This document shows positions 1,691 through 64,000 of a stretch of DNA of 64,000 nucleotides, in pieces; the first letter of the stretch is position 1; each line of letters opens with the position of its first letter. Source of the stretch: Bacteroidales bacterium (GTDB lineage Bacteria; Bacteroidota; Bacteroidia; Bacteroidales; UBA12077); assembly GCA_028282785.1 (NCBI GenBank), contig JANQHE010000076.1, forward strand, positions 1 through 64,000, read 5' to 3'. A model generated the notes under the pieces. The model had not been told where the DNA came from and ran no database searches. It saw only the letters and a program-made list of their open reading frames with translations. The translations under genes and the position numbers were made by a program.

Positions 1691-2851
1691 ATGAAAAATG
1701 TTAAAAGAGTTGATATAATATTCGGTGCTTATACTCAGGAAAAGTATAAAGTATTTGAACAAACATTAAGTAAATCAAGTGATCAAATTATTTCTGAAGT
1801 AATCGAATCTGGATTAAGAGGGCGTGGAGGAGCAGGGTTCCCAACAGGTTTAAAATGGAAATATACAGCTGCTGAAGCTGATCCGGTTAAATATGTTGTA
1901 TGTAACGCTGATGAAGGTGAGCCAGGAACATTCAAAGACAGAGAAATTTTAACAAAAGTTCCACGTAAAGTTTTTAGTGGAATGGCAATTTGTGGAAAAG
2001 CAACTGGCGCTAAAAAAGGTTTCTTATACTTAAGAGGTGAATATCTTTATATGTTAGAAAACTTAAATAAAGAGCTTGATGTTTTCCACGAAGTAGCGAA
2101 GAAAAATAATTTTGATTTTACAATCGAAATCGTAATGGGTAGCGGAGCGTATATTTGTGGTGAAGAATCTGCTTTATTTGAATCAATTGAAGGTAAGCGT
2201 GGCGAACCAAGAAATAAGCCTCCTTATCCAACTGTGTCAGGTGTATTTAGCAAACCAACTGTTATTAATAACGTTGAAACGTTCGTTAATACGCTTATGA
2301 TCATGAGAATAGGTGCTAAGGAATTCCAAAAATTAGGTACTACTGATTCTCGAGGATCTAAATTATTTAGCGTATCTGGTGATACTCCTATCGCAGGAAT
2401 ATACGAGTTAGAGCTAGGTATGTCATTAGAAGATTTCGTTGAGGAATTTGGTGATGGCGATACGAAAGCTGTTCAGGTTGGGGGTGCTTCTGGGTTTTGT
2501 GTACCAAGAAAGAAATTCAAAGATACAATCATTGGTTTCGAAGGAGTTCCTACAGGAGGTTCTATGATGCTTTTCAATAGTTCTCGTTCAATGTATAATG
2601 TATTGAAGAACTATGTTGAATTCTTCGAAGAAGAATCTTGCGGGCAATGTACGCCTTGTAGAGTAGGTTGTCAGCAGCTTAAGAAAGGTATCGAAGCTGT
2701 TAAGAAAGGTGATAAATCAGCTGCTTATTTAAATACTTTACAAAAATTAGCAGATACTATGAAAGTTGCTTCAAAATGTGGTTTAGGACAATCAGTTGCA
2801 AACTCGTTCTATTCTATAGTTGATAACTTCAAGGAAGAAATGATTTACTAA
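1691..2851 (+). CDS. hydB: Trimeric [FeFe] hydrogenase NADH/FMN subunit HydB, short form
   Basis: This NuoF-family protein has 386 residues. Visible parts are the glycine-rich flavin/NADH site GRGGAGFPTGLKW (about residues 45-57), the acidic NADEGEPGTF motif, an SLBB-like region, and the C-terminal [4Fe-4S] site with SCGQCTPC plus a later CGLGQ cysteine. It oxidises or reduces NAD(H) with FMN. Unlike the second HydB in this window (597 residues), it has no N-terminal [2Fe-2S] thioredoxin domain and no C-terminal two-cluster ferredoxin domain. A strong ribosome site AAGGAG lies 9 bases before ATG 1691, overlapping the end of hydC. The short form bears on whether the complex can bifurcate electrons. 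Confidence 0.9.
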   Translation: MKNVKRVDIIFGAYTQEKYKVFEQTLSKSSDQIISEVIESGLRGRGGAGFPTGLKWKYTAAEADPVKYVVCNADEGEPGTFKDREILTKVPRKVFSGMAICGKATGAKKGFLYLRGEYLYMLENLNKELDVFHEVAKKNNFDFTIEIVMGSGAYICGEESALFESIEGKRGEPRNKPPYPTVSGVFSKPTVINNVETFVNTLMIMRIGAKEFQKLGTTDSRGSKLFSVSGDTPIAGIYELELGMSLEDFVEEFGDGDTKAVQVGGASGFCVPRKKFKDTIIGFEGVPTGGSMMLFNSSRSMYNVLKNYVEFFEEESCGQCTPCRVGCQQLKKGIEAVKKGDKSAAYLNTLQKLADTMKVASKCGLGQSVANSFYSIVDNFKEEMIY

Positions 2852-2860
2852 TCTTGATGC

Positions 2861-2905
2861 CCTGTCTGCCGATTTATCTGCCGAAGGCATGAAAGGCAGG
2901 CGTCA
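2861..2905. repeat. Intergenic palindromic repeat, copy 1
   Basis: A GC-richer stretch lies between hydB and hydA. It begins CCTGTCTGCCGATTTATC, continues with CTGCC...GGCAG pairing, and is nearly identical to 5080-5122 (a few mismatches over about 43 bases). It is an imperfect hairpin-forming, dispersed intergenic repeat. Here it sits inside an operon. Confidence 0.6.
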
Positions 2906-2949
2906 GGCAAGTTAACTAAATGATTGTATAAAAAATAAATAAAATAAAC

Positions 2950-4740
2950 ATGGCTAATACAGTAAACTTAAAAATAGATGGAATCGACGTAAGTGTTGAG
3001 GCTGGAAAAACTGTTCTTGATGCTGCGAAGGAGCTAAATATACATATTCCTACTCTTTGTTATCACGAAGATTTATGTGTAGCTGGAAACTGTAGAGTAT
3101 GTGTTGTTGAACAAGAAGGTGCTCGTAACCTTGTTGCTTCATGTGCAATGCCTGCTCAAGAAGGAATGGTAATTAATACCAATACGCTTAAAGTAAGAAA
3201 TGCAAGAAAGCATATCGTAGAATTACTATTATCAGAACATAATGCAGATTGTACTAAATGTTACAAAAACAAGAATTGTGAATTACAAGATCTTGCAAGT
3301 GATTTAGTTCAAACTGAGCAATTATATATCGATTTAGTAGAAGAAAAAGAATACACAAAAGATCAACAATCTCCTTCAATCATTAAGGATGATAGCAGAT
3401 GTATTCGTTGTCAGCGATGTGTAAGGACTTGTAATGAATTACAACATGTAAGTGCATTAGGAGTTGCTTACAAAGGTGACCATATGAAGATTTCTACTTT
3501 CTTCGAAAACCCAATGTACGATGTAGTATGTACTAATTGTGGCCAATGTATCAACCGTTGTCCTACTGGTGCATTAATTGAAAAGAATTACATTGATCAA
3601 GTATGGGATGCTATTCACGATCCTGAAAAACATGTAATCGTTCAAACCGCTCCTGCAACTCGTATTGCATTAGGTGAAGACTTAGGTATGGAACCAGGTG
3701 AAATCGTTACTGGTAAAATGGCTGCTTCATTAAGAAAGTTAGGTTTTGATTCAGTTCTTGATACTGATTTTACTGCTGACTTAACAATTATGGAAGAAGG
3801 TACTGAGTTACTTACAAGACTTAAGAAAGCATTAGTAGACGGTGACACTTCAGTTAAAGTTCCTATGTTTACTTCATGTTCTCCAGGTTGGATTAAGTTT
3901 ATCGAACATCAATATCCGGAATATTTGGATAATCTATCTACTTGTAAATCTCCGCAACAAATGTTTGGAGCACTTGCTAAAACATATTATGCACAAAAGA
4001 AAAACTTAGATCCTTCTAAGATCGTAAGTGTATCTATTATGCCTTGTACAGCTAAGAAATTCGAAGCTGCACGTCCGGAAATGAGAGATAGCGGATATCA
4101 AGATGTTGATTTAGGTATTACAACTCGTGAGTTAGCTGTAATGATTAAGCAAGCAGGTATGGATTTCGAAACTTTACCAGATGAAGGTTTTGATAGCTTA
4201 ATGGGTGAATCTACCGGTGCTGCTGTTATTTTCGGTGCTACAGGTGGTGTAATGGAAGCTGCATTACGTACTGCTTATGAGTTAGTTACAGGAAGAGAAG
4301 TGCCATTTGAAAACTTAGATATCACGCCGGTTCGTGGTATGGAAGGTGTTCGGGAAGCTTCTATTAAATTAGAAGGTTTATTACCTGATTGGAGTTTCTT
4401 GGAAGGTGTTGAATTAAAAACTGCTGTTGCGCACGGTTTAACTAATGCACACCAAATTATGGAAGCAATTAAGAAAGGAGAAGCTAGTTACCACTTTGTT
4501 GAAGTAATGGGTTGCCCGGGTGGATGTATTGGTGGTGGAGGCCAACCAATCCCAACAACTCCTGAAATCCGTAAAAAACGTGCTGAAGCAATTTATCGTG
4601 AAGATTCAGGTATGAAAATTCGTAAATCACACGAAAATCCGGAAATACAGCAAATTTATAAAGAATTCTTAGGAGAACCTCTGGGACACAAATCTCATGA
4701 GTTATTACATACTCATTACACAAAACGTAAGAGACATTAG
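2950..4740 (+). CDS. hydA: [FeFe] hydrogenase catalytic subunit HydA, first copy (TSCSP variant)
   Basis: 596 residues in the order: N-terminal [2Fe-2S] plant-type domain (cysteines near 37-65), a His-Cys3 cluster region (HNADCTKCYKNKNC, 97-110), two [4Fe-4S] motifs (CIRCQRCVRTC near 151 and CTNCGQCINRC near 194), then the H-cluster domain. L1 reads TSCSPGW (308-314), L2 MPCTAKKFE (364-372), and L3 EVMGCPGGC (518-526). In the usual L1 TSCCPxW the second cysteine is a cluster ligand; here it is Ser311. The C-terminal small-subunit-like region ends with KSHELLHTHY. It reduces protons or oxidises H2 in the cytoplasm with HydB and HydC. It is last in the operon, before a strong terminator. Confidence 0.92.
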   Translation: MANTVNLKIDGIDVSVEAGKTVLDAAKELNIHIPTLCYHEDLCVAGNCRVCVVEQEGARNLVASCAMPAQEGMVINTNTLKVRNARKHIVELLLSEHNADCTKCYKNKNCELQDLASDLVQTEQLYIDLVEEKEYTKDQQSPSIIKDDSRCIRCQRCVRTCNELQHVSALGVAYKGDHMKISTFFENPMYDVVCTNCGQCINRCPTGALIEKNYIDQVWDAIHDPEKHVIVQTAPATRIALGEDLGMEPGEIVTGKMAASLRKLGFDSVLDTDFTADLTIMEEGTELLTRLKKALVDGDTSVKVPMFTSCSPGWIKFIEHQYPEYLDNLSTCKSPQQMFGALAKTYYAQKKNLDPSKIVSVSIMPCTAKKFEAARPEMRDSGYQDVDLGITTRELAVMIKQAGMDFETLPDEGFDSLMGESTGAAVIFGATGGVMEAALRTAYELVTGREVPFENLDITPVRGMEGVREASIKLEGLLPDWSFLEGVELKTAVAHGLTNAHQIMEAIKKGEASYHFVEVMGCPGGCIGGGGQPIPTTPEIRKKRAEAIYREDSGMKIRKSHENPEIQQIYKEFLGEPLGHKSHELLHTHYTKRKRH

Positions 4741-36465: not shown

Positions 36466-36481
36466 TGTGAAACAAGTCACA
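36466..36481. promoter_or_regulatory. Rex-type operator overlapping the rex start codon
   Basis: TGTGAAACAAGTCACA is a perfect TGTGA-N6-TCACA repeat. The GTG start codon of rex (36467) lies inside it, so the repressor could control its own gene. Confidence 0.75.
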
Positions 36482-37099
36482 AAACATGTTATTCGGAATG
36501 ATTTAAAAAGATTATTTACGTATCGTTTATGTTTAATTGGTTTTAAGCGAAAGGGATTTGATCGTTTGTACTCCTATACCCTTGGCGAAGAGGCTGGCGT
36601 AAGTGCTGATCAGGTTAGAAAGGATTTTTCTAATTATAAAATTACCGGTAATAAAAAAGGTGGGTATAACATTGATGAATTGTTAAGAGCAATTGATGAA
36701 GTAATAAAACATCAGGATGATCAGTATATGATCTTGGTGGGAATGGGAAATATTGGTAGAGCTTTAGTGCAATATAAAACATTTAAACTGCGGAAAATGA
36801 TTATTGTTGCTTCATTTGATATTGATCCGGCAAAACAATCAAAACGTTGGAATGTGCCTGTTTTACCATTAGAAATGATGGATGATATAATCAAAAAGTT
36901 TCATGTCAAAGTAGCTATTTTAGCTGTACCTGCAATTTCAGCTCAAGATGTTGCTAATCGATTATATGATTTGGGGATAAAAGGGATATTAAATTTTGCA
37001 CCTGTAATTTTGAAAACACCCGAAGATATAATTGTTAATAATATAAATCTCTGCGATGAGCTTGAAAGTGTAATTTATTACACTCAAAAAGTTATATGA
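36467..37099 (+). CDS. rex: Redox-sensing transcriptional repressor Rex
   Basis: 210 residues from GTG 36467. The N-terminal winged helix (LYSYTLGEEAGVSADQVRKDFSNY, about residues 32-55) binds DNA; the C-terminal Rossmann domain has the NAD(H) motif LVGMGNIGRALVQY (about residues 88-101). Rex releases DNA when NADH is high, and so turns on fermentative and hydrogenase genes. It is divergent from the [NiFe] operon, with Rex-type operators at both gene starts, and 33-54 bases upstream of hypF. Confidence 0.94.
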   Translation: MKQVTKHVIRNDLKRLFTYRLCLIGFKRKGFDRLYSYTLGEEAGVSADQVRKDFSNYKITGNKKGGYNIDELLRAIDEVIKHQDDQYMILVGMGNIGRALVQYKTFKLRKMIIVASFDIDPAKQSKRWNVPVLPLEMMDDIIKKFHVKVAILAVPAISAQDVANRLYDLGIKGILNFAPVILKTPEDIIVNNINLCDELESVIYYTQKVI

Positions 37100-42953: not shown

Positions 42954-43066
42954 TATTTGTTGTAAAACATATTTCTTAAAATAAGATAATAAGTACCAGT
43001 AAATCAGTCGAAAAGATTAGGTTGATTATTTAGATTTATTTTATTTAATTGTTAATCAAATAACAG

Positions 43067-43082
43067 TGTTATAAAAATAACA
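43067..43082. promoter_or_regulatory. Rex-type operator upstream of the second [FeFe] hydrogenase cluster
   Basis: TGTTATAAAAATAACA is a perfect TGTTA-N6-TAACA repeat (6-base arms). It lies just upstream of the -7 element at 43093 and covers the expected -33 region, so a bound repressor would block the promoter. Confidence 0.7.
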
Positions 43083-43092
43083 AAAAGCATAT

Positions 43093-43158: not shown

Positions 43159-43503
43159 ATGAATATTAAAGAAGTGGTAGATATTATTGGTGGCAAATTA
43201 ATTTGTGGAGAATCCATGATTAATACTGAAATAGAGAGAGGTTTTGCATCAGATTTAATGAGTGATGTTTTAACGCTGGACTCCGATAATGTTCTGTTAA
43301 TTACCGGGTTGGCTAACCTGCAGGCTATTCGAACTGCTGAAATGTCAGATATATCTTGTATTGTTTTTGCTCGAAATAAGAAAATAACCAAAGAAATGAT
43401 GGAACTTGCGAAAGAAAATAATATTATCCTTATTGAATGTGCTAGTTCGGTTTTTAAAACTGCTGGAAAATTATATAAAGCTGGAATAAAACCTGTTTTT
43501 TAA
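43159..43503 (+). CDS. DRTGG-domain protein, first copy
   Basis: 114 residues forming a single DRTGG-like domain (GFASDLMSDVLTLDSDNVLLITGLANLQAIRTAEM). Such domains also occur in phosphotransacetylase and CBS-type proteins and probably bind a small molecule or nucleotide. It opens a cluster of regulatory genes just after the Rex-type operator and ends one base before the HATPase gene. A second DRTGG gene lies at 45290. Confidence 0.82.
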   Translation: MNIKEVVDIIGGKLICGESMINTEIERGFASDLMSDVLTLDSDNVLLITGLANLQAIRTAEMSDISCIVFARNKKITKEMMELAKENNIILIECASSVFKTAGKLYKAGIKPVF

Positions 43504-43504
43504 T

Positions 43505-43924
43505 ATGCATTTTGAATATAACATAGAAGGTGGTGATTTTTCAAAGGCTGGTTTTGCTTCAAGTCAGTTAAAGAAAGTTTTAAAGCAGCTTATAACAGAC
43601 CATAAGGTTGTTAAACGGACTGTTGTGGCACTGTATGAGGCCGAAGTAAATGTTGTAGCTCATGCATATTTGGGAGTAGTGATTATTGATATTGATACTG
43701 ATAAAATTAAAATTCAAATAAATGACAAAGGACCTGGTATTGAAGATATAAGTAAAGCAATGGAAGAAGGTTTTTCAACAGCATCGGAAAAGGTACGGGA
43801 AATGGGATTCGGAGCAGGAATGGGATTGTCAAATATTAAAAACAATTCCGATGATTTTAAGATAACCAGTGAAGTTGGAGTAGGAACAAAACTTGAAATA
43901 ATAGCTTATCTGAAAACCATATAA
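43505..43924 (+). CDS. HATPase-domain protein, RsbW-like anti-sigma/serine kinase
   Basis: 139 residues with the N box EAEVNVVAHAYLG, G1 motif INDKGPGIED and GFGAGMGLSNIKNN, a complete GHKL ATP-binding fold of the RsbW/SpoIIAB kind. Such proteins switch partners by phosphorylating serine. Its neighbour is a degenerate hydrogenase-like Fe-S protein, which suggests signal transduction. Confidence 0.85.
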   Translation: MHFEYNIEGGDFSKAGFASSQLKKVLKQLITDHKVVKRTVVALYEAEVNVVAHAYLGVVIIDIDTDKIKIQINDKGPGIEDISKAMEEGFSTASEKVREMGFGAGMGLSNIKNNSDDFKITSEVGVGTKLEIIAYLKTI

Positions 43925-43925
43925 T

Positions 43926-45278
43926 ATGGAACAAAAAGTATTTCATCACGCATTAAAAATTCAAAAAGATCGGTGTATGGGCTGTTCTCATTGCATGAAT
44001 ATTTGTCCGACCGGGGCAATTCGTGTTAGGAATGGTAAAGCTGAACTTTTTGAAAATCGTTGTATCGATTGTGGTGAATGCTTTAGGGTTTGCCCAGTTA
44101 ACGCTATAATTATTGAACAAGATGATTTTAACAAGATTTTTCAATATAAACACAGAATAGCCCTGTTGCCGGCAGTATTGATTGGCCAATTTCCTGAAGA
44201 TATCAAAACATCCCAGATTTACAATGTATTAATAGGCCTCGGATTTACAGATGTTTATGAAGCAGAACACGGAGTAGATATCTTAAAGGACTCCATGAAA
44301 GAATATGTTGACAGAAATAAGGGCATCAAACCTTTAATATCTTCATTCTGCCCAGCAGTTGTTCGTTTAATACAGGTAAAATTCCCGGCGTTGGTTGATA
44401 ATATTATTTCGCTTCACCCACCATTGGATATAGCTGCTTTATACTATAGGCAAAAGTTGGTAAGCGAAGGAGTAGATGAATCGGATATTGGGATTTTCTA
44501 TGTAACACCTTGTGCATCAAAAATAGCTGCAATAAAGAGTCCGGTTGGTGAGGATAAATCTCACATAGATGGAGTAATCAATATGGATTTTATATACAAT
44601 AAAGTCTATACAGGTGTTAAGAGAAGCGATTATATCCCGGGCCAGAAATTTAAAGCAGAGAGGCTTTCTCCCGAAGGTACTGTTTGGAGCTTAACCAATG
44701 GTGAAGCTGATATGATGGAAGGTAGATGTTTGGCTATTGATGGAGTGCATAATGTGATGGATTTTCTTGAGAAAATAGAGAATGAGGAAATAAAAGATGT
44801 TGATTTCTTGGAGTTAAGAGCATGTGACGAAAGTTGCGCAGGAGGAGTATTAACCGCTCAAAACCGTTTCTTAACAGTTGAACGGTTAAGAAAAAGAGCC
44901 GCCTATATTAAAGAGAATTATTCTGATTATAAAAGGAAAGATATACTAAATCACTCAGAATACTTAAATCAAAAAATAACTCTTGGCAAAATTAAGCCAC
45001 GATCGATGATGAAACTCGATGAAAATATGGCTGAAGCAATGAAGAAAATGCGCCGCGTTAAAGAAATTTTAAAGTGCCTTCCTGACGTGGATTGTGGAGC
45101 ATGTGGTGCACCTAACTGCCAGGCATTAGCTGAAGATATTGTTCAAGAACGTGCAGTAATTAATCACTGCATATTCATTCAAAGGATATTCGAGAAAAAA
45201 GGAATAATTGATTGGGAAGAATCACACCAAATAATGCAGGATATCTGGGGTGATGAAAAACTAAACAGAAAATGTTAA
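43926..45278 (+). CDS. [FeFe]-hydrogenase-like Fe-S protein, likely sensory and non-catalytic
   Basis: 450 residues: two N-terminal [4Fe-4S] motifs (CMGCSHCMNIC and CIDCGECFRVC, residues 17-56), an H-cluster-type domain, and a C-terminal Fe-S domain (CLPDVDCGACGAPNC, residues 384-398). The three active-site motifs are altered: L1 SSFCPAV (Phe141 where the proton-transfer Cys belongs, Cys142 kept), L2 TPCASK (Cys196), L3 ELRACDESCAGG (Cys300, Cys304). The four cluster ligands remain, so an Fe-S cluster or altered H-cluster may still form. It lies between a HATPase gene and a second DRTGG gene. Catalytic turnover is doubtful. Confidence 0.86.
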   Translation: MEQKVFHHALKIQKDRCMGCSHCMNICPTGAIRVRNGKAELFENRCIDCGECFRVCPVNAIIIEQDDFNKIFQYKHRIALLPAVLIGQFPEDIKTSQIYNVLIGLGFTDVYEAEHGVDILKDSMKEYVDRNKGIKPLISSFCPAVVRLIQVKFPALVDNIISLHPPLDIAALYYRQKLVSEGVDESDIGIFYVTPCASKIAAIKSPVGEDKSHIDGVINMDFIYNKVYTGVKRSDYIPGQKFKAERLSPEGTVWSLTNGEADMMEGRCLAIDGVHNVMDFLEKIENEEIKDVDFLELRACDESCAGGVLTAQNRFLTVERLRKRAAYIKENYSDYKRKDILNHSEYLNQKITLGKIKPRSMMKLDENMAEAMKKMRRVKEILKCLPDVDCGACGAPNCQALAEDIVQERAVINHCIFIQRIFEKKGIIDWEESHQIMQDIWGDEKLNRKC

Positions 45279-45289
45279 AATATAATAGA

Positions 45290-45622
45290 ATGAAAGTATC
45301 AGATATAATAAATGAATTAGGATTAACAGTTTTTTCAGGGCAATCAGGTATTGATAAGGAAATAACCGGAGGATATGTATCTGACCTATTAAGTGACGTT
45401 ATGGGGCACGCAAAGGAAGGACAAATATGGTGTACTTTGCAAACTCATAAAAATGTAATGGCTATTGCTTCTTTAAAAGACCTATCAGCTATCATTCTAG
45501 TTAAAGGTTTTAAGCCTGATGAGGACATGGCTGAGCAAGGCGAAGTAGAAGGAGTTCCTGTGTTGGGCACAACGGAAACTACATTTGAAATTGTAGGAAA
45601 ATTATATGAGTTACTAAAATAA
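45290..45622 (+). CDS. DRTGG-domain protein, second copy
   Basis: 110 residues from ATG 45290, where the start MKVSDIINELG matches the first copy; an ATG at 45272 would overlap the previous gene. The domain (GGYVSDLLSDVMGHAKEGQIWCTLQTHKNVMAIASLKDLSAIIL) is similar to the copy at 43159. It is followed by the PHP gene after one base. Confidence 0.82.
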   Translation: MKVSDIINELGLTVFSGQSGIDKEITGGYVSDLLSDVMGHAKEGQIWCTLQTHKNVMAIASLKDLSAIILVKGFKPDEDMAEQGEVEGVPVLGTTETTFEIVGKLYELLK

Positions 45623-45623
45623 G

Positions 45624-46364
45624 ATGAATTCATACAAGGCAGATTTACATACACATACCGTGTTATCTCCTTGTGGGAGTTTGGAGATGGGTCCACAAAA
45701 TATAATTAAAAGGTGTAAAGAAGAAAAAATTGAGATACTGGGAATTACAGATCATAACAGCACTAGAAATTGTAAAGCGGTTGAAGATCTGGCAAAAAGC
45801 AATGATATCCTGATTTTAAAGGGAGCAGAAATTACCACGAAAGAAGAAATACATTGCTTAGCGTTCTTTGAAAAAGATGATGAATTATTTGATTTTCAGA
45901 AATACCTGGAAGAGCATCTACCTATGGTAAAGAATGATGTAAATAAGTTTGGGTACCAGGTTGTAGTTGATAAAAATGAAAATATTTTAGCTCAGGAAGA
46001 TAAACTTTTAATAACTGCTTTAGATGTAAGCCTTATTCAGGTCGAAAAAAAAGTTCATAGTTTGGATGGCTTATTTATTCCGGCTCATATCGATAGAAAG
46101 AGTTATTCTATCATAAGTCAACTGGGCTTTATACCAACCGGATTAGAAATTGATGCACTGGAGCTTTCAAAATACGCTTCAAGAAAAGAGTTTTTGGAAA
46201 AGAATAACTACCTGGCAGATTATTCTTTCATTCAAAGTTCCGATGCTCATTTTCTGGAAAACATTGGTGATGCTTATACAAGTTTCCAAGTACTTGATAA
46301 ATCATTCCACGAAGTGAAACTTGCTTTAAAAGCGATTAATGGAAGAAAGGTATTAATTTCATGA
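45624..46364 (+). CDS. PHP-domain phosphoesterase-like protein
   Basis: 246 residues with the PHP metal motifs DLHTHTVLSPCGS near the N terminus, GITDHNSTRN near residue 43, PAHIDRKSYS, and SSDAHFLENIG near the C terminus. The metal ligands are in place for phosphoester hydrolysis. It overlaps the next HATPase gene by four bases. The substrate is unknown. Confidence 0.87.
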   Translation: MNSYKADLHTHTVLSPCGSLEMGPQNIIKRCKEEKIEILGITDHNSTRNCKAVEDLAKSNDILILKGAEITTKEEIHCLAFFEKDDELFDFQKYLEEHLPMVKNDVNKFGYQVVVDKNENILAQEDKLLITALDVSLIQVEKKVHSLDGLFIPAHIDRKSYSIISQLGFIPTGLEIDALELSKYASRKEFLEKNNYLADYSFIQSSDAHFLENIGDAYTSFQVLDKSFHEVKLALKAINGRKVLIS

Positions 46365-46912
46365 ATAATATTTCGATGCATATATTAGATATTGTACAAA
46401 ACTCAATTCGAGGGAATGCAAGCTTAATTGAAATAATTATTCGAGAGCAACAGGTACAAAACAAGCTTGAATTACAAATAAAAGATAACGGGAAAGGAAT
46501 GGATACTGAAATGTTAGCTCATGTTACGGATCCCTATACAACCACCCGAACCACCCGAAAGGTTGGTTTGGGTTTACCATTGCTCAAACATACAGCTGAA
46601 CAAGCAAATGGGTCGTTAAAAATTCAGTCCGGCTTGGGAGTGGGTACGTTGGTTAATGTGGTTTTTCAACTAGGCCATATAGATAGGCCTCCATTGGGAG
46701 ATTTAGCAGGAACTATAGTTTTGCTGACGGCAGCAAATCCGGATATCGATTTCAAATATATTCATCAGGTTAATGATAAAAAGTATGAGTTTAATACACT
46801 CAATATTAAAGAAGTATTGGGTGATATTAAAATTAGTGATCCTAAAATAAGGAGGTATTTAAAAGAAATGATATCAGAAAATGTAAATGACATATGTAAA
46901 ATTCATGATTAA
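46361..46912 (+). CDS. HATPase-domain protein, second copy
   Basis: 183 residues with GHKL motifs: N box VQNSIRGNASLIEI, IKDNGKGMDTEML and GLGLPLLKHTAEQANGSL. Its C-terminal extension of about 70 residues is unlike the first copy. It starts inside the PHP gene end (ATGA overlap) and ends about 90 bases before the hydrogenase genes. Confidence 0.85.
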   Translation: MNNISMHILDIVQNSIRGNASLIEIIIREQQVQNKLELQIKDNGKGMDTEMLAHVTDPYTTTRTTRKVGLGLPLLKHTAEQANGSLKIQSGLGVGTLVNVVFQLGHIDRPPLGDLAGTIVLLTAANPDIDFKYIHQVNDKKYEFNTLNIKEVLGDIKISDPKIRRYLKEMISENVNDICKIHD

Positions 46913-47002: not shown

Positions 47003-47404
47003 ATGGCAAAAATCAAAACTTTAGCAGATCTAAAAAAAATGAAAGAAGATTTGCAATCAAAAGTAGAAATCAGGGAAAAAGGGGATAGTCCTGAAAGCTA
47101 CGTGCAAATTAAAGTTGGTATGGCAACCAGCGGAATTGCTTCTGGAGCAAAAGAAGTAATGGACTTTTTGATTGAAGCTCTTGAAAAAAGAAACATTGAA
47201 GCTGTTGTTACTCAAACTGGCGACATGGGTTACAGTTTTGCAGAACCAACAATAGAGGTTAAAAAACCAGGAGAAGAGCCAATTGTTTTCGGTTATGTTG
47301 ATACCGAAAAAGCCGATGAAATTATTGAGAAGTATATCAAACAGGGAGAATTGGTAGATGGTATCATACCTGTAAACTATCAAGTTATTGATGACGATAA
47401 ATAA
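47003..47404 (+). CDS. HndB-like [2Fe-2S]-fold protein without cysteines
   Basis: 133 residues of the small NuoE-like/HndB family found in front of trimeric [FeFe] hydrogenase genes (VQIKVGMATSGIASGAKEVMDFLIEALEKRNIEAVVTQTG). In related proteins this fold carries a [2Fe-2S] cluster. Here there is no cysteine anywhere, so it cannot hold one and would be structural or regulatory. The stop codon at 47402-47404 is 19 bases before the hydB start. Confidence 0.78.
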   Translation: MAKIKTLADLKKMKEDLQSKVEIREKGDSPESYVQIKVGMATSGIASGAKEVMDFLIEALEKRNIEAVVTQTGDMGYSFAEPTIEVKKPGEEPIVFGYVDTEKADEIIEKYIKQGELVDGIIPVNYQVIDDDK

Positions 47405-47423
47405 AAAATTGGAGGATATAAAA

Positions 47424-49217
47424 ATGGCAAAATATAAAATGCATTTGTTAGTTTGTGGTGGTACCGGATGTAGAGCGGCTGCAAGCGACTCAATTGTTGA
47501 GAGCCTGAAACAGGAACTTGAAAATAAAGGCCTTCAGGATGATGTTCAGGTAATAATGACTGGTTGTTTTGGTTTCTGTGAAAAAGGCCCTATTGTAAAA
47601 GTATCTCCTGATAACACTTTCTACGTTCAGGTAAAGCCTGAAGATGTAGCTGAAATAGTAGAAGAACATTTAGTTAAAGGGCGTCAGGTTGAAAGGTTAT
47701 TATATAAAGATCCTGAAAAAGAGGAGGTTGTAGCTGATTCAAAAAATATGGATTTCTACAAAAAGCAAATACGCATTGCTTTAAGGAATTGTGGATTTAT
47801 TGATCCGGAAAACCTAGATGAATATATTGCACGCGAAGGTTACATGGCATTAGGTAAGTGTCTTGTCGAAATGAAACCGGCTGATGTTATTAATGAAATT
47901 AAAGAATCGGGCTTAAGAGGCCGTGGAGGAGGAGGTTTCCCAACCGGTTTAAAATGGGAAATTGCAGCTAAAAACGAAGCAGACCAAAAATATGTTGTTT
48001 GTAATGCTGATGAGGGTGACCCGGGGGCTTTCATGGATCGTTCCATATTAGAAGGCGACCCGCATGCTGTACTTGAAGCTATGGCTATTTGTGGTTACTC
48101 AATGGGAGCCACAAAAGGTTTAATTTACATTCGCGCTGAATATCCTTTGGCAATTAAGAGGTTAAAAATTGCTATCGAACAAGCTCGAGAATACGGACTA
48201 TTAGGTAAAAATATTTTTGGAACAGATTTCGAATTTGATATTGAGTTACGTTATGGAGCCGGAGCTTTTGTTTGTGGCGAAGAAACTTCTTTAATTCATT
48301 CTATGGAAGGCGAACGTGGCGAACCAACTATTAAGCCTCCGTACCCGGCAGAAAAAGGTTATTTGGGAAAACCAACCAATGTTAATAATGTTGAAACTTA
48401 TGCAAACATTCCGGTAATTATTAACAAAGGAGCAAGTTGGTTTAGTAAAATAGGAACAGAAAAATCAAAAGGAACAAAAGTATTTGCCCTTGCTGGTAAA
48501 ATTAACAATGTAGGCCTAATTGAGGTTCCAATGGGAACAACCTTGCGCGAAGTTATTTTCGAAATAGGTGGTGGAATTAAAGATGGTAAAAAATTTAAAG
48601 CTGTTCAAACCGGTGGGCCATCAGGAGGTTGTTTAACTGAGAAGCATTTGGATACCCCAATCGATTTTGACAACCTGGTTCAAGCCGGTTCAATGATGGG
48701 ATCAGGGGGTATGATTGTTATGGACGAAGATGATTGTATGGTATCGGTTGCCAAATTTTACCTAGACTTTACTGTTGAAGAATCTTGCGGAAAATGTTCT
48801 CCATGTAGAATTGGTAATAAAAGGTTATACGAACTATTAGATAGAATTACTCAGGGAAAGGGTGAAATGGATGACCTTCAACGCCTTCGTAATATGAGTA
48901 CTGTAATTAAAGATACCTCACTTTGTGGATTAGGCCAAACTTCTCCAAATCCGATTTTATCTACTTTAGATAACTTCTACGAAGAATATGTTCAACATGT
49001 AATTGATAAGAAGTGTGCAGCTGGCCAGTGTAAAGATTTAATGACATATTTTGTTGTAGAAGAAAACTGTGTAGGTTGTACCGCTTGTGCAAGAGTTTGT
49101 CCTGTAGGTGCTATCACAGGAGAGAAAAAGCAAACACATTTTATAAATCCAGAGATTTGTATTAAATGTGGCGCGTGCGAAGAGAGATGTAAGTTTGATG
49201 CAATCATTGTAAAATAA
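47424..49217 (+). CDS. hydB: Trimeric [FeFe] hydrogenase NADH/FMN subunit HydB, full-length form
   Basis: 597 residues from ATG 47424, set by the strong ribosome site GGAGG at 47411-47415 (a longer frame starts 47388). Domain order: N-terminal thioredoxin-like [2Fe-2S] site (CGGTGC at 11-16, CFGFC near 48), NADH/FMN domain with GLRGRGGGGFPTGLKW (about 163-178), NuoF-type [4Fe-4S] site (SCGKCSPC), and a C-terminal ferredoxin domain (CVGCTACARVCP, CIKCGACEERC). This complete set matches electron-bifurcating hydrogenases that use NADH and ferredoxin together. Compare the short HydB at 1691. Confidence 0.94.
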   Translation: MAKYKMHLLVCGGTGCRAAASDSIVESLKQELENKGLQDDVQVIMTGCFGFCEKGPIVKVSPDNTFYVQVKPEDVAEIVEEHLVKGRQVERLLYKDPEKEEVVADSKNMDFYKKQIRIALRNCGFIDPENLDEYIAREGYMALGKCLVEMKPADVINEIKESGLRGRGGGGFPTGLKWEIAAKNEADQKYVVCNADEGDPGAFMDRSILEGDPHAVLEAMAICGYSMGATKGLIYIRAEYPLAIKRLKIAIEQAREYGLLGKNIFGTDFEFDIELRYGAGAFVCGEETSLIHSMEGERGEPTIKPPYPAEKGYLGKPTNVNNVETYANIPVIINKGASWFSKIGTEKSKGTKVFALAGKINNVGLIEVPMGTTLREVIFEIGGGIKDGKKFKAVQTGGPSGGCLTEKHLDTPIDFDNLVQAGSMMGSGGMIVMDEDDCMVSVAKFYLDFTVEESCGKCSPCRIGNKRLYELLDRITQGKGEMDDLQRLRNMSTVIKDTSLCGLGQTSPNPILSTLDNFYEEYVQHVIDKKCAAGQCKDLMTYFVVEENCVGCTACARVCPVGAITGEKKQTHFINPEICIKCGACEERCKFDAIIVK

Positions 49218-49232
49218 TAAATTATTAGAACG

Positions 49233-51008
49233 ATGGATAAAGTAAAATTAACTATAGATAACAAGCAAATAGAAGTAGAAAAAGGGACTACGATCTATAA
49301 AGCTGCCAAAGATTTAGGAATTGAGATCCCGGTGTTGTGTTACATGAACCTTGAAGGTTTAAACATTGAAAATAAACCGGGAGGATGCCGTATATGTGTT
49401 GTTGAGGTTGAGGGGCGCCATAACCTGGCACCTTCATGTTCAACGGAAGTTTGGGATGGAATGGTTGTAAATACTCACTCCATGAGAGTAATCAATGCCC
49501 GTAGGACTGTAATGGAATTTATTCTTTCTGATCACCCGAAAGATTGTTTAACTTGTGCTAAATCCGGCAATTGTGAATTGCAAGATATGGCCGTTAAATT
49601 AGGTATCAGAGAAATTCCGGGACAAGAATATGCTGAAATGTCAACTTACAAAACAGACTTTTCACCTTCTATTATTCGTGAACTGGACAAATGTATCATG
49701 TGCCGCCGTTGCGAAATGATGTGTAATGATTTCCAAACTGTTGGTGCACTTTCCGCTTTCCACCGTGGATTTGAGTCGGCAGTTGGTCCTGCATTCGAAA
49801 TGGATATCGAGGATTCTCCTTGTACATATTGTGGACAGTGTGTGGCTGTATGTCCAACCGGAGCATTAACAGAAAAAGATCATACGAGAGACGTTATCAA
49901 TGCGCTTTCCGATCCAACCAAAAAAGTTATCGTTCAAACTGCTCCTGCAGTACGCGCTGCTTTAGGCGAGGAATTTGGAATGGAAGCCGGAACATTGGTA
50001 ACGGGAAAAATGGTTTCTGCATTACGCCGTTTAGGTTTCGATTATGTTTTCGATACAGATTTTGCAGCTGACCTAACCATTATGGAAGAGGGAACGGAAT
50101 TATTAGATCGTTTAACTAAACATTTAAATGGTGATAAAGAAGTTAAGCTTCCTATTTTAACTTCGTGCTGCCCTGCCTGGGTAAGTTTCTTCGAGCATCA
50201 TTTCCCTGAAATGAAAGATATTCCATCAACTGCACGCTCTCCTCAGCAAATGTTTGGTGCGATTGCAAAAACTTATTTTGCCGATAAAATAAGCACAAAA
50301 CGCGAAGATATGATAGTTGTTTCTATCATGCCTTGTTTAGCTAAAAAGTATGAAGCTCAGCGCGATGAATTTAAAGTGAATGGAAACCCGGATGTTGATT
50401 TCTCTATATCAACCCGCGAATTAGCTCACTTAATTAAAGAAGCAAACTTAGATTTAAATACATTACCCGACGAAGATTTTGATAAACCTTTAGGTGAGTC
50501 TTCCGGAGCTGGTGTAATTTTTGGTACTACAGGTGGAGTTATCGAAGCCGCTGTTCGTACTGCTTACGAATTACACACTGGTAAAAAACTTGAAAAATTA
50601 GATTTCGAACAGCTACGGGGTTTCGATGCTGTACGTAAAGCTACTGTCGATTTTGACGGAACTCCAATTAATATTGGAATTGCTCACGGATTGGGACATG
50701 CACGTAAATTACTTGAAGAAATTAAAGCTGGGAAATCAGAATTCCATGCTATAGAAATCATGTCGTGCCCGGGAGGTTGTATTGGCGGTGGTGGACAACC
50801 ATTGCACCACAGTGATTCAACAATTCTGAAGGCTCGAGCAAAAGCAATTTACCAGGAAGATGCTGGCAAACCAATCCGTAAATCTCACGAAAATCCTTAT
50901 ATTATTAAGTTGTATGAGGAATTCTTAGGCAAGCCAATGAGCGAAAAAGCACATCATTTATTGCACACTGCTTATTTTGATATGAGCCGTAAGATTGAAA
51001 TCGAGTAA
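49233..51008 (+). CDS. hydA: [FeFe] hydrogenase catalytic subunit HydA, second copy
   Basis: 591 residues: N-terminal [2Fe-2S] region, His-Cys3 site (HPKDCLTCAKSGNC), two [4Fe-4S] motifs (CIMCRRCEMMC and CTYCGQCVAVC) and an H-cluster domain with canonical L1 TSCCPAW (residues 310-316), L2 MPCLAKKYE and L3 EIMSCPGGCIGGGGQP. All H-cluster ligands and the proton-relay cysteine are in place, unlike the first HydA. It follows hydB by 15 bases. Confidence 0.95.
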   Translation: MDKVKLTIDNKQIEVEKGTTIYKAAKDLGIEIPVLCYMNLEGLNIENKPGGCRICVVEVEGRHNLAPSCSTEVWDGMVVNTHSMRVINARRTVMEFILSDHPKDCLTCAKSGNCELQDMAVKLGIREIPGQEYAEMSTYKTDFSPSIIRELDKCIMCRRCEMMCNDFQTVGALSAFHRGFESAVGPAFEMDIEDSPCTYCGQCVAVCPTGALTEKDHTRDVINALSDPTKKVIVQTAPAVRAALGEEFGMEAGTLVTGKMVSALRRLGFDYVFDTDFAADLTIMEEGTELLDRLTKHLNGDKEVKLPILTSCCPAWVSFFEHHFPEMKDIPSTARSPQQMFGAIAKTYFADKISTKREDMIVVSIMPCLAKKYEAQRDEFKVNGNPDVDFSISTRELAHLIKEANLDLNTLPDEDFDKPLGESSGAGVIFGTTGGVIEAAVRTAYELHTGKKLEKLDFEQLRGFDAVRKATVDFDGTPINIGIAHGLGHARKLLEEIKAGKSEFHAIEIMSCPGGCIGGGGQPLHHSDSTILKARAKAIYQEDAGKPIRKSHENPYIIKLYEEFLGKPMSEKAHHLLHTAYFDMSRKIEIE

Positions 51009-51043: not shown

Positions 51044-51532
51044 ATGTCAGATATAAAAGTTAAAGTAAAAGAAAAAGACCTGAATACAATAAAAGAAATT
51101 TGTAAGTCTTTTGATAATAAACCAGGCGAATTAATCAATGTTTTACATAAAACCCAAGAGCATTTTGGATATTTACCTGCTGAAATACAAGAAGTAGTTG
51201 CACAAGAATTAAATGTTTCAGTGGCTAAGGTATACGGAGTAGTAACTTTTTACTCATTCTTTACCATGATCCCAAAAGGTAAATATCCAATTTCTATTTG
51301 TACCGGTACAGCTTGTTATGTACGTGGGGCAGACAACGTTTTGCAAGAGTTTAAACGCCAGTTAGATATCGAAGTGGGTGAAACTACTGAAGATGGAAAA
51401 TTCTCGTTAAGTTGCTTACGTTGTGTAGGTGCTTGCGGTTTGGCTCCTGTGGTGTTAGTAGGCGAAAAAACATATGGCCGTGTATCTCCCGAGGGAGTAA
51501 AAGAAATTTTAGAGGAATATGTTGGAAAATAA
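51044..51532 (+). CDS. hydC: Trimeric [FeFe] hydrogenase subunit HydC, second copy
   Basis: 162 residues of the NuoE family with [2Fe-2S] ligands CTGTAC (CX4C) and CVGAC (CX3C) and a helical N-terminal part. Ribosome site TGGAGG precedes the ATG. It is last in this cluster, whereas in the first cluster hydC is first. It passes electrons between HydB and HydA. Confidence 0.94.
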   Translation: MSDIKVKVKEKDLNTIKEICKSFDNKPGELINVLHKTQEHFGYLPAEIQEVVAQELNVSVAKVYGVVTFYSFFTMIPKGKYPISICTGTACYVRGADNVLQEFKRQLDIEVGETTEDGKFSLSCLRCVGACGLAPVVLVGEKTYGRVSPEGVKEILEEYVGK

Positions 51533-62139: not shown

Positions 62140-63042
62140 ATGATCTATATAGCATTTTCATCTTATTATCATCATCCATTGCCTGAAGGACACAAATTTC
62201 CAATGGATAAATATATCAAAATACCGGAACAACTATTAAAAGAGGGAACGTATACAAAACGTAATTTCTTTGAGCCAAAATTAACAGGAGATGACTTTAT
62301 TTCATTGGTACATAGCAATAAATATATTGCTAAATTAAAACATAATAATATTACTAAACAGGAAGAACGAAGATTGGGTTTTCCGCTAAGTCCTGAATTA
62401 ATAAAGCGTGAGGCATTAATTTGTTCAGGTAATTCGCAGGCAGCATTGCTTGCCATGGAAAATGGAGTTTCGTTTAATGCTGCAGGCGGAACACATCATG
62501 CACACTGCGATTTTGGAGAGGGGTACTGTATGTTCAACGATATAGCGGTTGCATCTCAATACTTATTAAATAACAGGGAAGTTAATCAAATTCTTGTAAT
62601 TGATTTAGATGTACATCAAGGGAATGGAACTGCAAATATATTCTCAAATGAAAGCAGGGTTTTTACTTTTAGTATGCATAGCGAAACAAGCTTTCCTTTA
62701 AGAAAAGCTAAATCTGATCTTGATATTGCTTTAGCTCCGTTAACAGATGATAACGAATATTTAAGCTTGCTCGGTGATCAATTACCCAAATTAATTGAAA
62801 ACGTAAAACCGGATTTTATTTTTTACCAATGTGGAGTTGATATTCTCACAAACGATCAGTTGGGTCATTTAAATGTAACCAAAAAAGGATGCGCTGAGCG
62901 TGATAGAATAGTTTTGGAAAGTGCTCATAAATATGGAATCCCGTTAACAGCATCTATGGGTGGAGGTTATGCCCGGGATATAGATGAAATTGTAGATGCA
63001 CATTGTAATACATACAGAATTGCAAAAGAAATATTTGGTTAA
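62140..63042 (+). CDS. Histone deacetylase-family (acetoin utilisation-like) hydrolase
   Basis: 300 residues with the zinc-enzyme motifs: GGTHHAHCDFGEGYCMFNDIAVA (catalytic His pair), VIDLDVHQGNGTANIF (zinc Asp and His), and a late DILTNDQLGHLNVT (zinc Asp). The family removes acetyl groups from amines such as polyamines or lysines. The gene ends overlapping the convergent phosphatase gene by four bases. Confidence 0.9.
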   Translation: MIYIAFSSYYHHPLPEGHKFPMDKYIKIPEQLLKEGTYTKRNFFEPKLTGDDFISLVHSNKYIAKLKHNNITKQEERRLGFPLSPELIKREALICSGNSQAALLAMENGVSFNAAGGTHHAHCDFGEGYCMFNDIAVASQYLLNNREVNQILVIDLDVHQGNGTANIFSNESRVFTFSMHSETSFPLRKAKSDLDIALAPLTDDNEYLSLLGDQLPKLIENVKPDFIFYQCGVDILTNDQLGHLNVTKKGCAERDRIVLESAHKYGIPLTASMGGGYARDIDEIVDAHCNTYRIAKEIFG

Positions 63043-64000
63043 ATAAACTTCATACTAATCTCTTTCAGGAATTTACTTTCTAAAGTTTCTGCGATACGGC
63101 GAACAACTGTTCTTCTTATTTCGAGTTCAACTGGCAAATTTGGATCCTGATGGGCAATGTTTACTCTGGTTCCAATTACAAAATGTATCTCATCACTTTC
63201 TTTTAGCAATTTAACAATTTGATCGGCAGGTCCTTTGCCAAGCATATAATTATTATTATAAACTTTCAGGATTTCAGATACTTTACTAAGTGTAAGAATA
63301 CCTTCAGTGACCAAATCTATTCCTGTCATATATGCAACCGGAGGAAGGTCCGGATCATGGAATTCAAAACTGTCTTCAATTTCAAGCTCTAACTCGCGGG
63401 AAATAATGTCCGCTGTAGTTGCTCCACTTAAAATCTTTTTTCCTTCGAAATTTTTTACAACTTCAGCAAGTTTTACATCTCTTTCTTCTTCATATGGAGG
63501 CCCGGTGCAAAGCAATAGTTTTCGTGGTTTTCTGAAATATATGGCGGCGCAGCTTGTATCATCTTTTGCATGATAGGCATCATTTTGGTATGCCATGTTA
63601 ACAACTTTTCCTGCTAATTTATTTGCGGAAATTTCCGGATTATTAATAACTAACCTTTTTGTAAAATCTTCAAGGTTATCATGTCCCCAGCCAAAAGGAT
63701 ATTTTGAACTTCCTAAGCCTGATTGTGTGATCCCATCGCTACAGAATACAATCCTGTCTTCTTTTTGTGCTTGAAAAGTACAATTCTTTAATATTTTGCC
63801 GGCATTTTGTTCTCCTTCCATAACAACAGTTTGCCATTTAGGGTCAAAGACCTGGTCTTTTCTGATTATGATTGTTTCGGGATTATCATATTCCAGTATA
63901 GTTGTTTTTCCGTCTGCTTCAATGTCTATGATCGTAAAAGTGGAATAGCTGATATGACGTTTGCTACAAACGGGCAAAGTATTCATTATAATTTCAGCTA
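63039..64000 (-). CDS. SpoIIE-type protein serine phosphatase, partial (5' end outside window)
   Basis: At least 320 residues; the frame stays open to the right edge, so the ATG at 63986 is probably internal. PP2C/SpoIIE features are visible: ISYSTFTIIDIEADGKTTILEYDNPETII, IVFCSDGITQSGLG (metal Asp-Gly) and YHAKDDTSCAAIYFR (metal Asp-Asp). A C-terminal extension of about 150 residues follows (LLCTGPPYEEERDVKLAEVV...). SpoIIE phosphatases work with HATPase kinases of the kind encoded at 43505 and 46361; a link is possible but not shown. Confidence 0.84.
   Translation of the reverse strand, partial: AEIIMNTLPVCSKRHISYSTFTIIDIEADGKTTILEYDNPETIIIRKDQVFDPKWQTVVMEGEQNAGKILKNCTFQAQKEDRIVFCSDGITQSGLGSSKYPFGWGHDNLEDFTKRLVINNPEISANKLAGKVVNMAYQNDAYHAKDDTSCAAIYFRKPRKLLLCTGPPYEEERDVKLAEVVKNFEGKKILSGATTADIISRELELEIEDSFEFHDPDLPPVAYMTGIDLVTEGILTLSKVSEILKVYNNNYMLGKGPADQIVKLLKESDEIHFVIGTRVNIAHQDPNLPVELEIRRTVVRRIAETLESKFLKEISMKFI

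Follow-up and report, generated by a model that had tools for sequence, protein, structure and literature searches.

A putative group D sensory [FeFe]-hydrogenase of Bacteroidales encoded with an RsbW-like ATPase and DRTGG proteins

Group D members of the [FeFe]-hydrogenases occur upstream of trimeric hydrogenases (PMC3561251), and group D HydS proteins with a nearby histidine-kinase-like ATPase and linkage to trimeric hydrogenases have been published (PMC3561251, PMC8163306). Here we describe a six-gene module that encodes a putative sensor of this kind within a 64,000-nucleotide stretch of DNA (the window) from Bacteroidales bacterium GCA_028282785.1 (contig JANQHE010000076.1; source genome G000). 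The module consists of DRTGG protein 1, HATPase 1, and the hydrogenase-like protein HydS (trio 1), followed by DRTGG protein 2, a PHP-domain protein, and HATPase 2 (trio 2). Going by the available text of PMC8163306, PMC10407848, and PMC13104023, HydS resembles TamHydS of Thermoanaerobacter mathranii (group D, or M2e) in its domain layout, its C-terminal Cx2Cx4Cx16C motif, and the absence of a PAS domain; the two also share the loss of Cys299, a hydroxyl residue at the position of Met353, the group D proton path, and the charged residues of the group. Group D features were compared with PMC11803613 as well. Relative to TamHydS, as given in the same available text, the window protein has Phe141 for Ala137, Arg298 for Leu291, and Thr194 for Ser191. 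An AraC-type regulator lies beside TamHydS, whereas none is found in the window operon, and the available parts of these papers do not mention DRTGG or PHP partners.

Three other described systems are comparable in part. The group C HydS proteins (R. albus RaHydS and HfsB/HfsC of Thermoanaerobacterium) are also putative H2 sensors composed of ferredoxin, H-domain, and C-terminal cluster, and they have a neighbor gene for Ser/Thr-type phospho-signaling. They differ in possessing a PAS domain and a SpoIIE phosphatase neighbor, which adjoins group C HydS in R. albus, in Monoglobus, and elsewhere in the window genome, whereas the HydS described here has an RsbW/SpoIIAB-like ATPase as its neighbor and belongs to a separate clade. 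That ATPase, HATPase 1, shares with the RsbW/SpoIIAB anti-sigma kinases the Bergerat ATPase fold signature and the catalytic-type Glu and Asn of the N box, but it scores below the family cut-off and has a DRTGG protein in the partner position; a Pfam search limited to the six module genes found no STAS antagonist, sigma factor, or DNA-binding gene among them. The hydrogenase operon of Acetobacterium woodii similarly encodes a small HydD without cofactor sites and a histidine-kinase-like HydE beside HydABC, and HATPase 2 is of the type described for that HydE; the A. woodii operon as described has five genes and is without HydS, DRTGG, or PHP proteins (PMC3315566).

By architecture and diagnostic residues, HydS represents a Bacteroidota form of the putative sensory [FeFe]-hydrogenases of group D (M2e). 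It has two N-terminal [4Fe-4S] motifs (C17/20/23/27 and C46/49/52/56), its Cx2Cx4Cx16C motif corresponds to C390/C393/C398/C415, and no PAS domain was found by Pfam in its 450 residues. As a preliminary description of this DNA had noted, all four H-domain cysteines are kept (C142, C196, C300, and C304), Phe141 replaces a cysteine, and L3 reads ELRACDESCAGGVL, without GGGxP. The group A signatures TSCCPxW, MPCxxKxxE, and CPGGCxxGGGQP are absent, HydS having SSFCPAV, TPCASK, and CDESCAGGVL, and the positions of Cys299 (CpI), Met353, and Met497 are occupied by Phe141, Thr194, and Arg298. Residue 141 is F or Y in all Bacteroidota relatives and Ala in a Clostridia-class relative (L150). The proton path of group D, in contrast, is present: E260/T257/E296/D272 of HydS correspond to E252/S249/E289/D265 of TamHydS. 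These residues were placed by the sequence context printed in the available part of PMC10407848 (S249-G-G-E252-A and D-F-F-E289-G-L-A-C), to which T257-N-G-E260-A and D-F-L-E296-L-R-A-C correspond in HydS; the match of D272 to D265 allows one gap residue. E260, D272, and E296 are kept in 81/81 Bacteroidales relatives, and Thr or Ser at position 257 in 80 of the 81. The charged residues R30/R32/K35/D378/E392/D393 of TamHydS correspond to R33/R35/K38/D389/E403/D404, of which R35 and K38 vary among HydS relatives.

An AlphaFold2 model of HydS (predicted local distance difference test score, 92.3; predicted template modeling score, 0.90) has the H-domain fold and aligns with CbA5H and CpI over ~340 residues at 3 Å (VIA-align Z of about 30 to 31). 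In a phylogenetic tree, which included the Clostridia-class member L150 and not the TamHydS sequence, HydS and its relatives, L150 among them, make up a single clade (100/100) that is separate both from group A and from the group C sequences, R. albus RaHydS included. HydE, HydF, and HydG are all encoded in G000. Because the proton path is kept and these maturases are present in the genome, HydS likely carries an H-cluster, and slow H2 turnover would be expected on the same two grounds. The preliminary description called the protein a degenerate hydrogenase; this is misleading, since a protein without the group A relay need not be without H2 chemistry, and the presence of both the alternative path and the maturases rules out simple hydrogenase decay for the window protein. 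That description had counted normal H2 turnover against a sensor; slow turnover, which the path and the maturases predict, would not speak against the role.

Conservation was counted over 79 Bacteroidales loci, with denominators given by the loci having enough flanking sequence; the contig scan for HydS loci returned Bacteroidota only. DRTGG protein 1 and HATPase 1 lie directly 5' of HydS in all 74 Bacteroidales loci that have 1 kb upstream. Trio 2 lies directly 3' of HydS in 35/67 loci, and genes for a HydD-like protein, HydB, and HydA come next in 28/54. The same order of module genes is found again in another class of Bacteroidota and in one genome of the class Clostridia. Chance grouping of DRTGG, HATPase, and HydS is excluded because of the 74/74 loci and this recurrence. 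Trio 1 frequently stands by itself amid unrelated genes (in rumen, gut, and other Bacteroidales), and in some genomes trio 2 is found apart from trio 1, adjoining HydD-B-A-C (L076, L085, L095, and L109). Since each trio can also stand apart from the other, the module divides into two separable trios, of which DRTGG-ATPase-HydS is the constant unit, and the flanking of the sensor by two DRTGG copies is in itself no functional arrangement. HATPase 1 relatives were rare in a plasmid collection of 72,556 records, with only two found, both adjoining HydS. HydG was detected in 44 of the 46 Bacteroidales genomes searched that carry the HydS family.

A HydS relative is also present in 20 genomes of another Bacteroidota class, in which profile searches found no HydE, HydF, or HydG above the curated cut-off (a HydE match in G436 lies just below it); as positive controls, the same searches recovered all three maturases in G000 and HydE and HydG in G019, a genome of the same phylum. 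In every one of these 20 relatives E260 is replaced by Gln, Leu, or Ile and D272 by Ala, Ser, or Gly, and T257 is mostly aliphatic. All four H-domain cysteines are retained in 18/20, Cys300 being lost in two. The maturase-less set groups at 79/85 in the tree, and the correlation of path loss with maturase absence may go back to a single evolutionary event. Because F or Y at position 141 is common to the maturase-bearing and maturase-less sets, Phe141 is, on this comparison, not itself a mark of lost H2 chemistry. Many maturase-less HydS proteins (L024 and L200-L216) have His, Asp, or Arg in place of the second Cys in their first ferredoxin motif, and one N-terminal cluster of these proteins may be altered.

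Eleven of the 20 maturase-less genomes encode no PF02906 protein other than the HydS relative. The other nine (G437, G342, G377, G431, G393, G180, G467, G479, and G494; loci L218-L223), which are largely complete, have group A-type HydA genes too; among the few read, several have intact catalytic motifs (TSCCP and/or MPCxxKK and/or CPGGCxGGGGQP). These nine genomes would have either very divergent maturases or an H-cluster made another way. Because 9/20 genomes carry HydA without detected HydEFG, the step from missing HydEFG to a missing H-cluster is weakened; as judged from these genomes, HydEFG absence is no airtight proof, and the argument would stand better for the 11 with HydS alone. The same pattern, HydA-type genes without HydE, HydF, or HydG above the cut-offs, was seen in G216.

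The gene neighborhood of the maturase-less relatives differs from that in the window. Eighteen of the 20 loci (G172 and G180 counted) start with HdrC, HdrB, and an HdrA-like fragment, with HdrB unrecognized in one, and continue with the module; in the 15 to 16 loci with enough contig, HydC, the HydD-like protein, HydB, a NuoG-like protein, MvhD, and a [NiFe] small subunit come next. A recognized open reading frame for DRTGG protein 1, HATPase 1, or PHP is missing from a few loci (L201 and L204), and the gene set is shorter in L214 and L217. The operon (L024, L025, and L200-L216) apparently encodes an NAD-linked Hdr/[NiFe] electron-bifurcating complex. A neighborhood survey for linkage to trimeric hydrogenases, as proposed in the preliminary description, thus found that link in the loci where the HydD-like, HydB, and HydA genes follow the module, and HdrBC/[NiFe] settings too; strict linkage to a trimeric [FeFe]-hydrogenase is ruled out by those settings and by lone trio 1. 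Because HydC, the HydD-like protein, and HydB are common to the HydABC and HdrBC/[NiFe] settings, gene content suggests that the target of the module is the NAD-linked flavin core and not the H2 site.

The window features are collected in Table 1. The six open reading frames at 43159-46912 lie on one strand, separated by 1 base or overlapping by a few, and the proposed six-gene module stands as drawn, with Pfam domain calls above the curated cut-offs for all six. Conserved motifs are FASDLMSDVLT and TGLxNxQxIRT in DRTGG protein 1 and GGYxSDLLSDVMG and WITLQTHKN in DRTGG protein 2, whose conserved start is probably 45290. HATPase 1 has an intact N box (YEAEVN), G1 (DKGPG), and G2 (GFGAGMGL), and the PHP protein has intact metal-site motifs (DLHTHT, DHN, AHIDR, and SDAH); in alignments of 60 to 99 sequences, the active-site motifs of both HATPases and of PHP are unbroken. 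The two HATPases had been taken together as RsbW type, which fits HATPase 1, whose best match is the SpoIIAB kinase family, but not HATPase 2, which is histidine-kinase-like and carries its own C-terminal extension. The HydD-like protein is akin to thioredoxin-like 2Fe-2S ferredoxins, but its cysteines have been lost; at least one Cys is retained by its relatives in L024 and L077. Upstream of the module, the window holds hypF, hypDEAB, and the first Rex gene.

Table 1. Positions and assignments of features in and around the HydS module (window coordinates)
Feature	Position	Strand	Length (amino acids)	Assignment and remarks
Rex-type redox (NADH/NAD+) repressor gene	36467..37099	+		Pfam CoA_binding + Put_DNA-bind_N; candidate module regulator
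Rex-box-like palindrome	43049..43066			TTGTTAATCAAATAACAG, 2 mismatches; weaker second one overlapping, 43066-43083
DRTGG protein 1	43159..43503	+	114	Trio 1; PF07085, 27.1 bits (cut-off, 25.2)
HATPase 1	43505..43924	+	139	Trio 1; RsbW/SpoIIAB-like GHKL ATPase, PF13581
HydS	43926..45278	+	450	Trio 1; group D-type putative sensory [FeFe]-hydrogenase; ferredoxin + Fe_hyd_lg_C + FeS (Pfam)
DRTGG protein 2	45272..45622	+		Trio 2; PF07085, 25.9 (cut-off, 25.2); PF02603, 30.2
PHP-domain phosphoesterase	45624..46364	+	246	Trio 2; PF02811 + PF13263
HATPase 2	46361..46912	+	183	Trio 2; histidine-kinase-like ATPase without DHp domain; PF02518, 56.9 bits
HydD-like protein	47003..47404	+	133	Weak NF041612 match
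HydB	47388..49217	+		NuoF-type flavin/NAD subunit; listed start is an upstream TTG
HydA	49233..51008	+		Catalytic [FeFe]-hydrogenase, group A6; NF040763, 896 bits (cut-off, 765)
HydC	51044..51532	+		NuoE-type 2Fe-2S; PF01257, 176 bits
SpoIIE-type phosphatase	63039..64000	-		Start of second sensory cluster, continuing past window end; adjoins group C HydS with PAS (L026:1040-2224, 2227-4086)

The Rex-type palindrome TTGTTAAnnnnTTAACAA, of a type reported for Thermoanaerobacterium hydrogenase operons (PMC5886521), was sought in the 250 bp upstream of DRTGG protein 1 and, for comparison, in the remaining non-coding sequence of these loci. Its density was 216 per 100 kb upstream versus 21 elsewhere, an enrichment of about tenfold whose significance is optimistic since the loci are related and not independent. 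An upstream palindrome with at most 2 mismatches was found in 20/75 loci. Over the whole window there are 32 Rex-like sites against 22.9 expected by chance, a mild excess, and strong enrichment is seen upstream of the module only. Module transcription is probably under separate control, by Rex via the NADH/NAD+ ratio.

Our favored reading, which we hold to be about evenly balanced between right and wrong as a whole, is that HydS is a group D sensor, that trio 1 acts as a switch and trio 2 as an effector on the flavin core, and that Rex governs transcription. When H2 binds or reduction takes place at the H-cluster or at neighboring clusters, HydS would change shape and then control the adjoining HATPase 1. 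HATPase 1 would be a protein kinase or nucleotide switch acting on DRTGG protein 1, its most likely partner, and trio 2 (DRTGG protein 2, the PHP phosphatase, and HATPase 2) would form an effector arm that tunes activity or assembly, not transcription, by acting on HydB, HydC, and the HydD-like protein. Of the earlier proposal that the module senses H2 or redox state for the hydrogenase, the linkage of a sensory module to the bifurcating enzyme is well supported, both by its conservation and by what has been published on group D HydS. Several points weigh against the favored reading. The TIGR01925 score of HATPase 1 is 60.7 bits, below the curated cut-off of 135, and trio 1 loci without adjoining hydrogenase genes are frequent. 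Phe141 and Arg298 lie near the predicted diiron site and could hinder diiron binding. Finally, the C-terminal cluster of TamHydS is not reduced by H2, according to the available text of PMC13104023.

Some of these points would fit a HydS that contains ordinary [4Fe-4S] clusters only and senses cell redox (ferredoxin or NADH) with the same ATPase/DRTGG output: the Phe at the Cys299 position is bulky, the Arg at the Met497 position is charged, and the 20 maturase-less relatives keep the module and nearly all of the four cysteines, 11 of them with HydS as the sole PF02906 protein. We consider this unlikely for the window protein, in which the proton path is intact, whereas E260 and D272 are each kept in 0/20 of the maturase-less set; furthermore, the maturases are encoded in the window genome, and HydG in nearly all of the relatives' genomes. 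The module might otherwise serve to assemble or maintain the bifurcating enzyme, with chaperone-like GHKL ATPases, HydS as an Fe-S scaffold, and no signaling. The conserved enzyme partners are indeed those of the HydB/C/D flavin core, and the histidine-kinase-like HydE of A. woodii is not part of the enzyme, its authors having proposed assembly or signaling (PMC3315566). This explanation seems to us quite improbable in the face of trio 1 loci that lie apart from hydrogenase genes and of a HATPase 1 that best fits the SpoIIAB kinase family. HydABC, moreover, assembles without HydS in many organisms. That HydS is a low-activity metabolic hydrogenase alongside the other three HydA-type enzymes would agree with a fold like those of CpI and CbA5H and with the full proton path, but we regard it as very improbable: Cys299, Met353, and Met497 are all replaced, HydS is always accompanied by the ATPase and DRTGG protein, and the specific activity of TamHydS is about 0.1 µmol/mg/min in the available text of PMC10407848.

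To a reading of wider scope we give some credence, short of even. Together, the two trios would serve to control NAD-linked electron-bifurcating hydrogenases generally, whether [FeFe] or [NiFe], with an input domain descended from a genuine group D hydrogenase that activated H2; H2 chemistry would then have been lost in one HydEFG-less Bacteroidota lineage with the partners left intact. If so, ordinary Fe-S clusters would supply the signal in that lineage through their redox state, and RsbW-like kinases would have a new class of partner in the DRTGG proteins.

The genome as a whole (5.5 Mb, 100% complete) encodes seven PF02906 proteins, six of them, the PAS-type HydS and a HisKA-fused HydS included, within about 68 kb of one contig. 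A second control region, which takes in window positions 63039-64000 and extends to about 75 kb on contig C43 (L026), contains the SpoIIE phosphatase, the PAS-type HydS, and HydC-B-A, together with a HydS fused to HisKA-HATPase (histidine kinase), response regulators, and a second Rex gene. On another contig, a further PF02906 protein of 463 amino acids (L028:7697-9088) has a C-terminal FeS motif and a long tree branch and adjoins large proteins of unassigned role.

In the full-text literature, a scope that leaves subscription journals outside, DRTGG and hydrogenase are mentioned together in a single paper, once each, and no joint mention of the PHP domain and [FeFe]-hydrogenase was found; within the same scope, the Phe/Arg pocket, the two-trio organization, the HdrBC/[NiFe] setting, and path loss in maturase-less relatives appear undescribed. 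The relay of the signal from group D sensory hydrogenases is an open question according to the available text of PMC8163306 and PMC13104023. The RsbW/SpoIIAB-like ATPase and the DRTGG protein, 5' of HydS in every complete Bacteroidales locus, are concrete candidate relay partners. In terms of H-cluster chemistry, the Phe/Arg pocket represents a second-sphere variant of a distinct kind, and the maturase-less relatives, in which the path is lost yet the partners are kept, provide a natural experiment that sets H2 input against signaling output.

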